Assembly: GCA_013388925.1 (NCBI GenBank)
Contig: JACAEJ010000060.1
Coordinates: forward strand, 1-45,595
Reading direction: 5' to 3'
Length of the DNA: 45,595 bases
Source: Nitrososphaerales archaeon
GTDB lineage: Archaea > Thermoproteota > Nitrososphaeria > Nitrososphaerales > JACAEJ01
Part shown: positions 40,264 to 45,429 of the stretch, one piece after another
Layout: each line of letters starts with the position of its first letter
Position numbering within the stretch: the first letter of the stretch is position 1
Notes under the pieces: model-generated
Seen by the model: the letters and a program-made list of their open reading frames with translations, nothing else
The model's database searches: none
Told to the model about the DNA's origin: nothing
Translations under genes and position numbers: made by a program

Positions 40264-40280
40264 ATTTATACTTCAAGTAT
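40264..40280 (+). promoter_or_regulatory. VapBC promoter and operator
   Basis: ATTTATAC (40264-40271) is a TATA box that overlaps ATACTT-C-AAGTAT (40268-40280), an inverted repeat of 6-bp arms around one base. Binding of the AbrB-like protein here would block transcription. This supports the ATG at 40303, preceded by GGGAG, as the true start. Confidence 0.5.
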
Positions 40281-40302
40281 GAAAGTTATACTGGTGGGAG
40301 AA

Positions 40303-40617
40303 ATGGAGCAAAAAGAGCCTGAAATCGCTGTCGTTGGGACAAAAGGCCAGATCGTCATACCTCAACAACTAAGAAGAGAGTTGAAGATAGCGCCAAAGAC
40401 AAAGCTGGCAGTCTACAGGAAGGGTGACAAACTCGTCGTCACAAAACTCAAGGTTCCTCCATTGGGAGAGGAGTTAAGATCTTTATTTAAGGAGATTGAC
40501 GAAAAGTACGAGGGAAAGAAGAGACCAACCGAAAAAGAAATCCTAGAAGAGATTCAAGCATACAGGCGGGAAAAGAGAGCCGAACAAGGCGCGTCGAATG
40601 GTTCGCGTAGTTGTTGA
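40303..40617 (+). CDS. AbrB/SpoVT-family antitoxin (VapB-like)
   Basis: A 104-residue protein with an AbrB swapped-hairpin DNA-binding domain: VVGTKGQIVIPQQLRRELKIAPKTKLAVYRKGDKLVVTKL. A charged helical tail (FKEIDEKYEGKKRPTEKEILEEI) would embrace the PIN toxin. The frame is open to ATG 40279, but that codon lies at the TATA box, so I place the start at 40303 after GGGAG. The last 20 bp overlap the PIN gene. Confidence 0.85.
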   Translation: MEQKEPEIAVVGTKGQIVIPQQLRRELKIAPKTKLAVYRKGDKLVVTKLKVPPLGEELRSLFKEIDEKYEGKKRPTEKEILEEIQAYRREKRAEQGASNGSRSC

Positions 40618-41002
40618 CACAAACGTTCTAGTGTCTGCTTTTATAGGCCGAGGGAAGCCTAGAAGATTGCTCCTTAAGTTGTTGGAAGCACACTCAATGG
40701 TCTTGTCTCGGCAGATGTTGGCAGAGTTGGCCGACGTTCTCTCAAGAGAGAAGTTCAGCGATGTTAGAAATTCTCAAGTTGATAGGTTCCTATCAAGTCT
40801 GGTAAGTAAATCTAAGGTAGTTACGGTAAGGTCAAGTTTTAAGGTAATAGAGGAAGACCCAGATGACGACATCGTTCTTAACACGGCGCACGGTGGAAAG
40901 GCTGACTACATAGTGACAGGAGACAGGCACCTGTTAGCTTTGAAGTCTTTCAAAGGAATTGAAATAGTGAAGGCCACCCAGATGCTCGAGATTATCAGAT
41001 AG
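40598..41002 (+). CDS. PIN-domain toxin (VapC-like, COG1569 type)
   Basis: A 134-residue PIN ribonuclease: VVVDTNVLVSAFI with the first catalytic Asp, LAELADVLSREKF with the conserved Glu, and DPDDDIVLNTAHGGKADYIVTGDRHLLAL with the last acidic pair. The catalytic set looks complete, so the toxin is probably active against RNA. It overlaps its antitoxin by 20 bp, which is usual for coupled pairs. The RNA target is unknown. Confidence 0.87.
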   Translation: MVRVVVDTNVLVSAFIGRGKPRRLLLKLLEAHSMVLSRQMLAELADVLSREKFSDVRNSQVDRFLSSLVSKSKVVTVRSSFKVIEEDPDDDIVLNTAHGGKADYIVTGDRHLLALKSFKGIEIVKATQMLEIIR

Positions 41003-41576: not shown

Positions 41577-41726
41577 GTGACGAAGCTTAGGTCGCCCCAA
41601 AAGAAGTTCAAGAGGGTTCCTATCAGGGACTTCTTTGGAGAAGTGGTATGCTACAAAAAGGTTAGAATCGGCAGGAAAAAGAAAGCAAAGAAGAAGCGCA
41701 GACGTAAGTCGTATTGGATTCTTTAA
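41577..41726 (+). CDS. Small very basic protein
   Basis: A 49-residue frame, MTKLRSPQKKFKRVPIRDFF then a Lys/Arg run (GRKKKAKKKRRRKSYW). About 40 percent of residues are Lys or Arg. It begins at GTG 41577 with no clear Shine-Dalgarno and converges on the ABC/GNAT gene, overlapping its stop by 4 bp. It could be a small nucleic-acid-binding protein of viral or ribosomal type, or a chance frame in a short gap. Confidence 0.4.
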   Translation: MTKLRSPQKKFKRVPIRDFFGEVVCYKKVRIGRKKKAKKKRRRKSYWIL

Positions 41727-42886
41727 TTATGATCTTTACTATTTTTAACCCAAATGTAGTACTTCTTGCCCCTCCTCTCAAGGGCCTCGGGAACCTCGGT
41801 CATACCTGCCTTCTCGAAGAAGGGCGCATACTTCGCCATGACCGCTATGGCTTCAACGTACTTCTTGCCGGCCAAGGCTAGGGTCTCCCTGACCAGCTTC
41901 GTTCCCAACCCGATAGATCGGTATCTCGAGTGTATGATTACCCGGCTGATGCAGGCGAAGTTACGGTTCACCTCTTCAAGTGGGAAGGAGCGCCCAAGGT
42001 AGATACTGCGGCCGAAGTACTTCCTCCGACTTGGTGTGTACACGATGACCCCTATTGTTCTATCCCCAAGGACCATTTGGAAGACTTTCAGAGACGGCGG
42101 CAGCCCCGACCTGTAGTGAAAGCGACCAAGAGGCCCATAGTCTGTCCTAGACGCTTGTACGATTCTAATACCTCGCACAATTGAGCATTCTTTTGGAGCG
42201 TCCTCGTTAAGGTACGTGACCTTGACATCTTCTCCAAACGATTTTTCAATAAAGACTGATGGGCCGAGGTCTTCAAAGAGATCTGTATGAGTTGTGGCCA
42301 CCAAGACCGTCTTGCCCTTCTTTCTGGCAACCTTCTGAAGGCAGAACGCTACAACCTTGGCCATCTCTCTGTCGAGGGTTGCACAGAACTTATCCATGAC
42401 CCAGACATCGGCCCCGCTGGCCAGCATCTTCGAGATCTTGTATCGATACTTCTGGCCGTCACTGAGCTCCCTATATCTCCTGAGGAATAAGAAGGCTTCA
42501 TTCAAGCCTGCCATGGAAAGATTGCGCAAAGCCTCTTCTGTGGAGGGTCCTGCTCCGTGAACGAGAACCTCATGGGGATCAATCTTCAGGTCCTTGTCAG
42601 TGATTGCCTCGCCGAAGACGTCCTTGTACACCTTGATCTGCTTCACAAGCTCTCTTGATAGAACAGATTTGCCCGACCCGCTCTCCCCTGTAATATAGAC
42701 CAGATCCCTTGGATTGATGTCGACTGCAAAGTTCTTGAAGACTGGGAATCTTCTAGTGTCAAGACCTATCCCGAAGGCTTCAGCAACAGCCATAGTCCGA
42801 TCTGTAATGATGCTCTTCGTCTGAAAGCTCTTATTGACTCTGAAGATCTTCCTTGGCTCTCTTTCGAGTAGAACTTTGAGCTTCAT
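41723..42886 (-). CDS. ABC-type ATPase fused to GNAT acetyltransferase (COG2401-like), Walker B Glu replaced
   Basis: A 387-residue fusion. Residues 50-225 are an ABC-type ATPase: Walker A GESGSGKS (67-74), signature LSDGQ (141-145), Walker B VWVMD (161-165) and H-loop His200. The catalytic Glu expected after Walker B is Lys166 (MDKF), so hydrolysis may be slow or absent. Residues about 240-387 are a GNAT-like acetyltransferase with the RSIGLGTKL acetyl-CoA loop (about 323-331). There is no membrane domain. It is the last gene of the leftward virus block, 12 bp after the terminase. The cellular COG2401 function is unknown. A DNA-packaging or host-modifying role is inference. Confidence 0.85.
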   Translation of the reverse strand: MKLKVLLEREPRKIFRVNKSFQTKSIITDRTMAVAEAFGIGLDTRRFPVFKNFAVDINPRDLVYITGESGSGKSVLSRELVKQIKVYKDVFGEAITDKDLKIDPHEVLVHGAGPSTEEALRNLSMAGLNEAFLFLRRYRELSDGQKYRYKISKMLASGADVWVMDKFCATLDREMAKVVAFCLQKVARKKGKTVLVATTHTDLFEDLGPSVFIEKSFGEDVKVTYLNEDAPKECSIVRGIRIVQASRTDYGPLGRFHYRSGLPPSLKVFQMVLGDRTIGVIVYTPSRRKYFGRSIYLGRSFPLEEVNRNFACISRVIIHSRYRSIGLGTKLVRETLALAGKKYVEAIAVMAKYAPFFEKAGMTEVPEALERRGKKYYIWVKNSKDHN

Positions 42887-42898
42887 GAAAATCTTTCC

Positions 42899-44176
42899 TC
42901 AAGAGACTGATAGAGGCACGAACCTTCCTGAGCCTTGCCTGACTGCCCAGCAGGCAAGAGACAAAGCCCTTCCTAGATCATCATGGGTCCCTGATCTGTG
43001 AGAGAAGGTATAACCTCCCGTCCTAGTTCTTTGAAATTCAATACAGTTTAAGGACGCTATCAGCTCAGTCAGATCATGGGATATTGAAATCTCCTTCCTC
43101 TCCATCAACGTTCTAAGATTGAGTAGAACTTTTTGAATATCCGAAGATTTGACAGACAGAGTCAGCGCCTTCAGCTCCTTCAGATGCTCAACTACTGAGA
43201 TGCCAGCTCCAATCTCCTCCACGCACACTATTCTATGTGAATATGCTCTATGATGGTCATGAACTTGAAGGGTCGCGCCAGTATAGTCATCTTGCATCCA
43301 AGCCTTGCAGTATTGAACGATGATCTTGTTCTCTTGCCTTTCAACAGTTGTAATGGCGTTAAGGTCCTCTCTGCCCCCGAAATCAAAGCCCATATAGTTC
43401 TCTCCTTTTGGTGATACTCTTGGCTCATAATCGCTCAGACACGATTGTATGAGACCCATGGGGAAGAATGAATCCTCGTCTTCTACAAATTCTGCGTCAT
43501 ATTCTAGCCTAAACCTTCTATCCCCTACCAGCACGCGCTGCTCTTCCAAAAACTCCTTCTTGATCAGAGGGTTTGCTGAAGACGGAAGATGGTAGCTGCT
43601 CCATTCTGGCGAGGTGAAGGCACGGTAGAAGATGTGGTCCTTGGACCAGGGGGTGGACAGCATCCATATCGCACCATCGGTCGTTGATATCTGTGGGAGA
43701 ACAGCGTTAGATATTACTTCTTCATATATGAATGAAGCCTCATCAAGAATTATCAGATGGGCTGTATGGCCTCTTAACGTTGCTCCATACCTTCCAGCAG
43801 GGAGAGCGATGATCCAGGAACCATTACTAAAACGCAGTCTTGTCCTAGAGCGATATGTTACACTTCTCCGGATCGGAGAGCCTTCTATGAAATCAAGGAT
43901 CTTGTCTTGCATGAGCATACTCTGTCTTAATGTTGCTGAGACGATTAGCGTGGTAGTTCTGGGATGTGTCAGAGTGAAATGAATGGCTTTGGCAGCTATA
44001 GTGGTGGATTTGCCCACCTGCCTCCCTGCACATACTACTATCCTCTTTGATGAATCTCTAAGCAGTTTTTCTTGATATGGAAAGGGCTTCCACTTCAACA
44101 CAAGCTCGCAGAAGAGCAGAGGATCATCGAATATTATCTCAGCGATCTGATCGTTGATACGGCGTTGTGAAAACAC
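42899..44176 (-). CDS. terL: Phage/virus terminase large subunit (TerL)
   Basis: A 425-residue packaging motor. Residues 30-200 are the ATPase: Walker A GRQVGKST (51-58), Walker B LIILDEAS (141-148), and coupling motif LSTP (173-176). Residues 260-410 are the RNase-H-like nuclease: GFDFGG (Asp265), VEE (Glu320-321) and HDD (398-400). All catalytic acids are present, so it should be active. This gene is diagnostic of tailed (Caudoviricetes-type) archaeal viruses. The start is GTG 44176; a TATA-like TTTAAATATGG (about 44195-44205) and a C-rich run lie just upstream, so TerL may also be transcribed separately. Confidence 0.93.
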   Translation of the reverse strand: MFSQRRINDQIAEIIFDDPLLFCELVLKWKPFPYQEKLLRDSSKRIVVCAGRQVGKSTTIAAKAIHFTLTHPRTTTLIVSATLRQSMLMQDKILDFIEGSPIRRSVTYRSRTRLRFSNGSWIIALPAGRYGATLRGHTAHLIILDEASFIYEEVISNAVLPQISTTDGAIWMLSTPWSKDHIFYRAFTSPEWSSYHLPSSANPLIKKEFLEEQRVLVGDRRFRLEYDAEFVEDEDSFFPMGLIQSCLSDYEPRVSPKGENYMGFDFGGREDLNAITTVERQENKIIVQYCKAWMQDDYTGATLQVHDHHRAYSHRIVCVEEIGAGISVVEHLKELKALTLSVKSSDIQKVLLNLRTLMERKEISISHDLTELIASLNCIEFQRTRTGGYTFSHRSGTHDDLGRALSLACWAVRQGSGRFVPLSVS

Positions 44177-44205: not shown

Positions 44206-44562
44206 TCATTCGATGAATATTCTTACGATCTTCTTGCCTTCTCTGCGCTTAGCTATCTCCTCAAAAATCTTGGCCAAATCTTGCTCATCTTTAACTTCAA
44301 TGCCTCTTAGCTTGAAGGCTTGCATAAGAGGGCCTGCTATTTTACTCAAGTTATCAAGGTACTTGAGTTTTTTATCTTCTTCGTCTTCATACAGATCGAT
44401 CCTGCCATCACACCACTTCAATCTAGCACCAAGTATAGCTATTGCTCCATCGATAGTTATGCTTGCCTTCTTTGCAGATCTGCCAAAGAATCCTTTCTGG
44501 TGTGGCCTAGCTCCTCCTATTCCCTTTGAATTTGTACTTTCAGGGGGGTTATCTTGATTCAC
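44206..44562 (-). CDS. Unknown virus protein, possible small terminase or accessory
   Basis: A 118-residue protein, not recognised. A flexible basic N-terminus (residues 1-35) is followed by SITIDGAIAILGARLKWCDGRIDLYEDEE and two charged helices (DKKLKYLDNLSKIAGPLMQAFKLRG, AKIFEEIAKRREGKK). Its place just before the terminase is the usual position of the small terminase subunit, and its size fits. No HTH is obvious. Position supports the suggestion; sequence does not prove it. Confidence 0.6.
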   Translation of the reverse strand: MNQDNPPESTNSKGIGGARPHQKGFFGRSAKKASITIDGAIAILGARLKWCDGRIDLYEDEEDKKLKYLDNLSKIAGPLMQAFKLRGIEVKDEQDLAKIFEEIAKRREGKKIVRIFIE

Positions 44563-44775: not shown

Positions 44776-45088
44776 ATTCTCTCACGCTCCTACAATAGTT
44801 CGTTATCTTGACTTGCTTTAGAGGGACTCTGGACTTCGAAATTTTTACAAGTAAAGGTAAAGGTATCAGAGTCACATCCTTATGATAATCAGAAGACTCA
44901 ACGATTATGGTAAGATAGCTCAATTTCTCGCTTTCAATTATCCCTTCAAATACGCCTATCGTAGTCATAGGATAGTCTGGGCTTGTGACAGGTTCGCCAG
45001 CTGGCATGTTCTTTATCGTATTTGCATCCAGCCAGTCTACTCTGATACACTCTCCTTTCTTCAAAGTTTTCAAAATGTGGTCCTTCAT
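44753..45088 (-). CDS. Unknown virus structural-region protein
   Basis: A 111-residue protein of mostly beta character (IGVFEGIIESEKLSYLTIIVESSDYHKDVTLIPLPLLVKI), not recognised. It starts at ATG 45088, overlapping the connector-like gene stop (ATGA). Position next to the head-tail connector suggests head closure or neck, but this is only by place in the block. Confidence 0.6.
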   Translation of the reverse strand: MKDHILKTLKKGECIRVDWLDANTIKNMPAGEPVTSPDYPMTTIGVFEGIIESEKLSYLTIIVESSDYHKDVTLIPLPLLVKISKSRVPLKQVKITNYCRSVREYERRKRA

Positions 45089-45429
45089 AGAGGCCTGTCC
45101 TCCGAGATTTCCGTGAGCTTGATGGCCTGGCCCTTGCCTTTCTGGGCAACGTATGCTTCTACATGCTCCTTGGCCTGCTCATAGCGAGATCGGATCTCTC
45201 CAGGAGAAGCTTCTCTGAATCTGAACAAGGAAGCTGCCAGATCTGCTGAAGAATGCTTGATGATGCTAGGAACTGTAGTTAGAGGGACTGTGAAGCCCTT
45301 TTCTTCAAGCAAAGCATCTATGGAGGAATCAGCCTGCTCTATGAAGCTTGTAATTGCAGTATCCTCGCTTGTATCTGTGACTGGTATGTTGAGCTTTGCC
45401 TTTACGTCATTAGCAGTACAATAGGCCAA
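45085..45429 (-). CDS. Head-tail connector-like protein (gp6/DUF1320-like)
   Basis: A 114-residue helical protein: MAYCTANDVKAKLN at the start, then DTAITSFIEQADSSIDALLEEKGF and IIKHSSADLAASLFRFREASPGEI. This pattern is that of phage gp6-type connectors and DUF1320 proteins, which form the ring joining head to tail. Family match is by pattern. It lies 2 bp after the partial gene at the right edge. Confidence 0.75.
   Translation of the reverse strand: MAYCTANDVKAKLNIPVTDTSEDTAITSFIEQADSSIDALLEEKGFTVPLTTVPSIIKHSSADLAASLFRFREASPGEIRSRYEQAKEHVEAYVAQKGKGQAIKLTEISEDRPL

Follow-up and report, generated by a model that had tools for sequence, protein, structure and literature searches.

What might an ABC ATPase joined to a GNAT acyltransferase domain do at the end of the packaging genes of a virus, and what does it mean when its catalytic glutamate is replaced by lysine? 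Both questions arise from one gene in contig JACAEJ010000060.1 of a Nitrososphaerales archaeon, of which we have analyzed a stretch of 45,595 nucleotides (the window). The initial annotation proposed a protein acetyltransferase controlled by ATP binding, with no described function. Our analysis suggests a different activity. The family to which the protein belongs most likely acylates the bases of DNA, a reading to which we give a probability of about 0.55. It would thus be Mom-like in its action, although we do not file it as Mom.

An ABC-GNAT fusion in a viral packaging block

The gene (ABC-GNAT) is an open reading frame on the minus strand, and frame 1 of the plus strand over the same interval contains several stops. 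Its features are as follows.

41723..42886, minus strand: ABC-ATPase/GNAT fusion gene, 387 aa with an ATG start, with Pfam and PHROG matches and a structural model
42227..42847, minus strand: ABC ATPase domain, approximately residues 14-220, from PF00005, phrog_293, the AlphaFold2 model and Foldseek matches to ABC nucleotide-binding domains
42665..42688, minus strand: Walker A GESGSGKS, residues 67-74, with G67, S69, G70, G72 and K73 invariant in alignment A1
42452..42466, minus strand: ABC signature LSDGQ, residues 141-145, with L141, S142 and G144 invariant in A1
42389..42406, minus strand: Walker B VWVMDK, residues 161-166, the Lys166 codon AAG lying at 42389-42391
42287..42289, minus strand: switch His200, invariant in A1, and His in 181 of 186 filled rows
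41741..42184, minus strand: GNAT domain, approximately residues 235-382, from Pfam, the GNAT-only model, and Foldseek and VIA-align matches
42113..42118, minus strand: HY motif His257-Tyr258, invariant in A1, pairing with the HY of Mom in hhalign and with HYS in Mom-like proteins
41903..41920, minus strand: acetyl-CoA loop RSIGLG, residues 323-328, with G326 invariant in A1, and R323 and G326 nearly invariant in alignment A2

The two domains lie in a single polypeptide, while in phages SSU5 and nickie they are encoded by separate nearby genes. Pfam matches the ABC half to PF00005 (1.9e-9), and the GNAT half to PF13673 (1.5e-4) and PF00583 (5.7e-4), both slightly below the curated cut-off. The PHROGs matches are phrog_293 (4.7e-33), phrog_11143 (4.7e-25) and, for the GNAT half, phrog_886 (2.1e-13). 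An AlphaFold2 model of the protein made from a 44-sequence input has a mean pLDDT of 90.9, and that of the GNAT domain alone a mean of 88.2. When solved structures were searched by sequence, the best 60 of 954 matches were all ABC ATPases, either transporters or ABC-F proteins. PADLOC matches the protein to mad3 and mad8, but this looks like general ABC similarity and we do not adopt either identity. The initial annotation was right that the Walker A motif, the signature and the acetyl-CoA loop are intact, and the D-loop ATLD is also present. Around 100 amino acids near the C-terminus, between FFEKAGM and KYYIW, are carried by most archaeal relatives in A1 and are absent from the window protein and from L028 1843-2997.

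The database of viral contigs that we searched (viral_contigs) contains at least 564 relatives, 564 of the 600 stretches examined encoding one; a scan of the same database with the single protein found none. In named phages many relatives are labeled ABC transporter or hypothetical protein. We saw no ABC membrane permease in the window block or among the scanned cluster representatives. For 118 neighbors of bacterial-type loci, the 25 listed families (of 77) include three matches to MFS_1, two to SBP_bac_5 and one to Mem_trans. We conclude that the window gene is a new archaeal member of a well-conserved viral family of ABC-ATPase/GNAT fusions.

ABC-GNAT is the last clear gene of a leftward-reading block, in which a connector is followed by three small open reading frames, the terminase large subunit (TerL) and then ABC-GNAT.

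42899..44176, minus strand: TerL, 12 bp upstream of ABC-GNAT as initially annotated; Terminase_6N 9.5e-14, PHROG terminase large subunit 1.8e-39, and a member of the TerL cluster
44206..44562, minus strand: 118-aa open reading frame just upstream of TerL, by position a possible small terminase subunit, with a weak homolog in the L029 block (1.5e-4)
45085..45429, minus strand: Gp36-like head-tail connector; PF07030 8.8e-10, phrog_195 4.1e-9

It is the Gp36-like connector that identifies this as a head and packaging block. No Pfam or PHROG family matched the 118-aa reading frame over the cut-off. The contig ends at 45595, and the rest of the virus is therefore cut off. Beside the viral edge, a pair of small open reading frames at 40279-41002 looks by eye like a VapB/VapC-type antitoxin with a PIN toxin.

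Lysine at the Walker B position

In an alignment of homologs Lys166 coincides exactly with the catalytic glutamate of Walker B, as had been claimed. The initial annotation allowed that the true glutamate might lie one residue away; this is ruled out by the neighbors, D165-K166-F167. The first alignment, of 19 homologs, has Glu at this position in 16, Asp in two and Lys in the window protein only. In a larger set containing all rows of at least 60 bits (n = 211) the column is filled in 186 rows, with Glu in 181, Asp in three, Asn in one and Lys in one. The three Asp rows correspond to two distinct genes, because L037 and L143 are one contig. With a single occurrence, lysine is clearly not a trait of the family. 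The nearest relative found, 65% identical to the window protein, has Glu. The scan of genome_contigs used a pattern that demanded Glu or Asp at the Walker B position, and therefore Lys copies could not surface there; the part of the viral_contigs scan that used an LS[DEN]GQ pattern and the relatives search with the whole protein were both able to find them. A 24-mer across the codon, in either its A or its G variant, is absent from viral_contigs, a database that may leave out near-identical records. As far as can be judged from the alignments, Lys166 is a private change in one copy, and possibly an error.

Replacing the Walker B glutamate of ABC ATPases usually blocks hydrolysis, and Lys166 should therefore stop ATP hydrolysis or slow it badly. 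The window copy would then be impaired, held in an ATP-bound state, or else an assembly error. A single transition separates its codon from one for Glu, which leaves an impaired copy, a drifted copy and an assembly error all possible. The designed ATP-binding switch of the initial annotation fares poorly against a change present in one sequence only. For this one copy we think it probable that Lys166 is an assembly error or marks a decaying, inactive allele, which would call for no special mechanism and would fit any reading of the family as a whole. This agrees with the proximity of the Glu codon, the rarity of lysine, the glutamate of the nearest relative and an assembly in 89 contigs. It sits less well with the intact reading frame and remaining catalytic motifs, and with a position that is not fully fixed, two distinct relatives having Asp there and another Asn.

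Association with the terminase

We surveyed 186 loci containing the fusion, reduced to 175 by dropping 11 doubly present contigs. Of these 175 loci, 98 have a same-strand TerL no more than 4 kb away and 61 have it directly upstream within 300 bp, in archaeal viruses and bacterial phages alike; these are raw counts over mutually related loci, among which near-identical contigs may remain. Divided by source, TerL lies within 4 kb at 54 of 80 IMG/VR contigs (which are viral by selection), 21 of 37 archaeal and 13 of 43 bacterial genome-contig loci, five of nine other archaeal genome loci (including the window) and five of six named phages. Single named-phage terminases matched 84 of the 102 members of the TerL cluster. 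The order also varies. TerL precedes ABC-GNAT at many archaeal loci (the window, L029, L030, L032 and L034), while L131, L134 and L141 have ABC-GNAT, ParB and then a TerL-like gene, and bacterial phages have ParB, ABC-GNAT and then TerL. Thus the link to packaging first seen in the window is real and recurrent, and occurs in several gene orders.

It is not universal. Neither TerL nor ParB was found at 54 of the 175 loci, 20 of which have 5 kb on both sides, out of 68 such loci. The closest homolog (G005) has no TerL within its 1.8 kb of upstream sequence, which contains reading frames that at other loci are found further upstream in the block. Within flanks of 4 kb, ABC-GNAT lies among replication genes in Thomasclavelia TR-TP2, Enterococcus 9184 and Nonlabens P12024S, and after tail genes in Komp_PAO1_1 and Porphyromonas 008a; no terminase is in view in the T4-like PX29 and vB_VmeM-32, or in pT24 and EastWest. 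Archaeal gene cluster 2 was considered as a portal, but named phage portals matched none of its 59 members, and its representative has no Pfam or PHROGs match; we dropped the label for archaeal loci. This cluster has a match on contig C64 of the genome from which the window comes. An archaeal genome (G022) has two ABC-GNAT copies, on contigs C7 (L036) and C19 (L035), of which one adjoins a TerL fragment and one adjoins ParB.

These positions bear on the proposal that the GNAT domain acetylates a protein, such as the terminase, portal, capsid or a host protein, with the ABC domain acting as a switch. TerL does adjoin the gene at many archaeal loci, and there is a viral precedent in the phiKMV GNAT Rac, which acetylates the host RNA polymerase according to PMC7824862. 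However, the terminase is not a constant neighbor, and in three phages the gene stands among those for replication.

Partner genes

At 40 of the 175 loci, archaeal ones included (L131, L134 and L141), a gene for a ParB-like protein lies on the same strand no more than 1.6 kb away, and named-phage proteins matched all 33 members of the ParB cluster. Such genes occur at only three of 80 IMG/VR loci, and no ParB_N protein was found in the genome of the window, which is 94% complete, so a step involving ParB cannot be general. Both ParB and TerL are near at 22 of the 175 loci, in more than one gene order. This would suit an accessory role in packaging, whereby a ParB-like clamp together with the ABC ATPase, like ParB with SMC, marks concatemeric DNA or delivers it to the terminase, and the GNAT domain is regulatory. 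Yet the GNAT domain has retained the acyl-CoA loop and the invariant residues, and so looks catalytic; moreover ParB is missing from the window's own genome, and the Mom-like exchange discussed below would be left unexplained. We therefore regard such a role as distinctly unlikely. DpdB, a ParB-like ATPase, serves the insertion of dPreQ0 into DNA according to PMC12839542, which notes that some clusters may do without it; ParB folds bind CTP, ATP or GTP (PMC12704722).

The commonest family among same-strand neighbors of 46 loci is Formyl_trans_N (8 of 118 neighbors, in the 25 of 77 families listed). By coordinates, the gene immediately after ABC-GNAT is that of a formyltransferase in 18 of 51 phage records, comprising 10 Gordonia, five Porphyromonas, Komp_PAO1_1, MT836387 and MT835523. 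In phage Jace there is a row of ParB, ABC-GNAT, aspartate decarboxylase (PF02261, 2e-33) and CoA-transferase III (PF02515, 2.2e-8).

L212 5098-6206: Jace gp87-gp88, aspartate decarboxylase and CoA-transferase III, directly after ABC-GNAT

This row could supply an unusual acyl-CoA, in one phage. The pair is not a recurrent partner, since the CoA-transferase occurs in Jace only, no other phage in the collection having one at E 1e-5; aspartate decarboxylase is present in 13 other records, several of which look by eye like host DNA.

Genes of an ASCH cluster, of which one member was tested against Pfam, lie near ABC-GNAT at 12 of 80 IMG/VR loci. Phage MismyG has an ASCH gene as well. Eight of the 12 converge on ABC-GNAT, either overlapping its end or lying less than 1 kb from it (L065, L073, L084, L092, L099, L102, L107 and L121), and these are therefore not in one operon with it. 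PMC6972931 describes YqfB, an ASCH protein, as an amidohydrolase that acts on N4-acylcytosine derivatives.

Three labels in the records did not stand. The 'DNA methyltransferase' of nickie (gp158) is weakly ParB-like (ParB_N, 0.0028), the 'DNA modification methylase' of Javan420 is ParB-like (5e-12) and the 'tRNA-methyltransferase' of Axumite (gp3) is a formyltransferase (1e-8). At L007 1805-2452, L209 3504-4022 and L217 4642-5472 the labels tRNA-methyltransferase, DNA modification methylase and DNA polymerase are misleading, the products matching a formyltransferase, ParB_N and a GNAT, respectively.

Exchange with a Mom-like gene

A direct comparison is provided by two sister Porphyromonas phages, 008a and 012a. 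Along 3.1 kb, as far as the tail genes extend, their DNA is 88% identical, and in the final 93 bp on the right it is 82% identical. Inside these shared flanks 008a has ABC-GNAT, a formyltransferase and one short open reading frame, where 012a has one Mom-like gene.

L211 3658-5667: segment of 008a with ABC-GNAT and the formyltransferase
L252 4827-5707: segment of 012a with the Mom-like gene

The product of the Mom-like gene is 33% identical to Mom of phage Mu (E 1e-19), and mom likewise lies near the right end of Mu. In Microbacterium phage Appa (L253 3469-4621) a ParB-like gene overlaps a Mom-like gene, which mirrors the pairing of ParB with ABC-GNAT.

Relationship of the GNAT domain to Mom and other acyltransferases

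We compared a mainly archaeal and a bacterial profile of the GNAT domain with other families by hhalign, after removing three shared sequences. The two are clearly related to each other (P = 1.6e-17). Against an alignment of eight Mom sequences they give P = 2.7e-5 and 4.3e-4 (archaeal and bacterial profiles, respectively), and the best values after shuffling of columns are 0.037 and 0.036, from 100 shuffles per comparison with all 400 results complete. With a 43-sequence Mom alignment we obtain 1.7e-4 and 4.3e-3, with best shuffles of 0.007 and 0.019; the match is weaker here, and the bacterial profile is therefore barely above chance. Control proteins, labeled RimI-like and Elp3-like by eye, give 0.17 and 0.25 against the eight-sequence Mom alignment, and range from 0.12 to 0.72 over both Mom sets. 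Our GNAT profiles match RimI-like proteins (9.7e-5 and 1.2e-3) about as well as they do Mom.

When the GNAT model is searched with Foldseek, Mu Mom (8bv8) ranks fourth, with E 4.3e-6, and structural comparison of the two gives Z = 13.2 and an rmsd of 3.4 over 142 aligned positions. RimI and Ard1 tie with it at Z = 13.1 to 13.2, the best Z being 13.5. We make no claim of membership of the Mom family because of this tie in structure and the equal RimI-like match in sequence. The link to Mom in sequence is weak, and is the weakest line in favor of DNA acylation; it is the gene context that carries the case.

A GNAT fold that matches RimI and Ard1 as well as Mom would equally serve a protein acetyltransferase, the activity that the initial annotation proposed. 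No specific support for that activity emerged. It leaves without explanation the Mom-like exchange, the formyltransferases, the ParB-like partners and the decarboxylase and CoA-transferase pair that in one phage suggests acyl-CoA supply. Judged by this context, DNA bases are the likelier target of acylation. We consider acetylation of a protein unlikely.

A third possibility is that RNA or a nucleotide is acylated, as by TmcA, the tRNA cytidine acetyltransferase that combines a P-loop ATPase with GNAT. TmcA (2zpa) is found by Foldseek with both the full model (rank 36, over 401 alignment columns) and the GNAT model (rank 23), and the ASCH neighbors speak for this reading too. However, the TM-score is low, at 0.30 over the query, the P-loop domain of TmcA is not of ABC type, and the ParB-like partners and the Mom-like exchange favor DNA. 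We find this very unlikely.

A proposed mechanism of DNA base acylation

We return to DNA bases as the substrate. This reading draws on the Mom-like exchange, the ParB-like partners, the formyltransferases, the Jace operon and the ASCH-cluster neighbors; the replication-gene setting in three phages and the match of the GNAT domain to Mom by profile and Foldseek are further points in its favor. There are limits, in that the formyltransferase and ASCH genes occur in subsets of loci only, and the Jace operon is single. We know of no modified base in any carrier of ABC-GNAT.

From the domains, their motifs and conservation, the gene context and the exchange, we infer the following mechanism. The ABC domain would dimerize on binding ATP, and clamp or scan the viral DNA, aided in many phages by the ParB-like partner. 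The GNAT domain would transfer an acyl group from acyl-CoA to the exocyclic amine of a DNA base. This would be acetyl by default, and could be some other group in phages that carry genes for its supply. ATP hydrolysis would reset the clamp, and the mark would shield the viral genome from host nucleases. A gene placed last in the head and packaging block would be expressed late, like mom in Mu, so that the mark should land on DNA about to be packaged.

A broader proposal is more tentative, and we think it possible rather than likely. Alongside Mom, ABC-GNAT would form a second class of viral enzymes that acylate bases, one driven by ATP and common to archaeal and bacterial viruses. The acyl group would depend on which of several interchangeable supply genes is present: formyl with the formyltransferase, beta-alanyl with aspartate decarboxylase and CoA-transferase, and acetyl with neither. 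The mark would be made late, on DNA on its way to the terminase, and a copy with Lys166 could be poor in hydrolysis and stay clamped on DNA.

If DNA bases are indeed acylated, hundreds of viral contigs carry a DNA-modification system, those of viruses of uncultured archaea among them. It would provide a further way in which viruses hide their DNA from host defense, and new enzymes for the labeling of DNA. The Mom-like exchange and the acyl-supply genes form the testable core of the proposal, and Lys166 is its least interesting part.

Comparison with known systems

The idea that an ABC-coupled GNAT acylates a nucleobase of DNA is already in print, so the family is not without a described function as first annotated. 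PMC7824862, naming Tenacibaculum phage pT24 and citing Iyer 2013, reports the prediction that an ABC ATPase-coupled GNAT acyl-modifies a DNA base. One of our relatives lies in a pT24 record and is 36% identical to the protein of Pasteurella phage Pmp13; the record is tied to that paper by the name of the phage, not by accession. Apart from PMC7824862, a literature search, mostly without subscription papers, found no paper describing the ABC-GNAT module, the wordings COG2401 and MK0520 included. What is new here is the contextual support.

The closest known proteins are fusions of the COG2401 or MK0520 type (phrog_293, phrog_11143 and phrog_886), which have the same domains in the same order, and we take the window fusion to be of COG2401 type. 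In one phage record the relative is labeled 'MK0520 protein, ABC-type ATPase fused to a predicted ...'. The window protein differs from these in having lysine for the Walker B glutamate, a residue that is usual in the family but does not define it, Asp and Asn also occurring, and in lacking the C-terminal insertion of most archaeal relatives in A1.

Three other systems share part of this architecture. TmcA acetylates cytidine in tRNA(Met), and has a P-loop ATPase joined to GNAT as in the window protein; it acts on tRNA, and its ATPase module is helicase-like, whereas Pfam and Foldseek place that of the window protein as an ABC domain. The protein acetyltransferases RimI and Ard1 have the GNAT fold and are among the tied best structural matches of the window domain, but each is a single GNAT domain with no ABC ATPase. 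Mu Mom, whose product is N6-carbamoylmethyladenine, has no ABC domain either, and its sequence similarity to ABC-GNAT is at the limit of detection. It has in common with the window protein the GNAT fold, the HY motif and a weak profile match, and in the sister Porphyromonas phages a Mom-like gene occupies the same slot.
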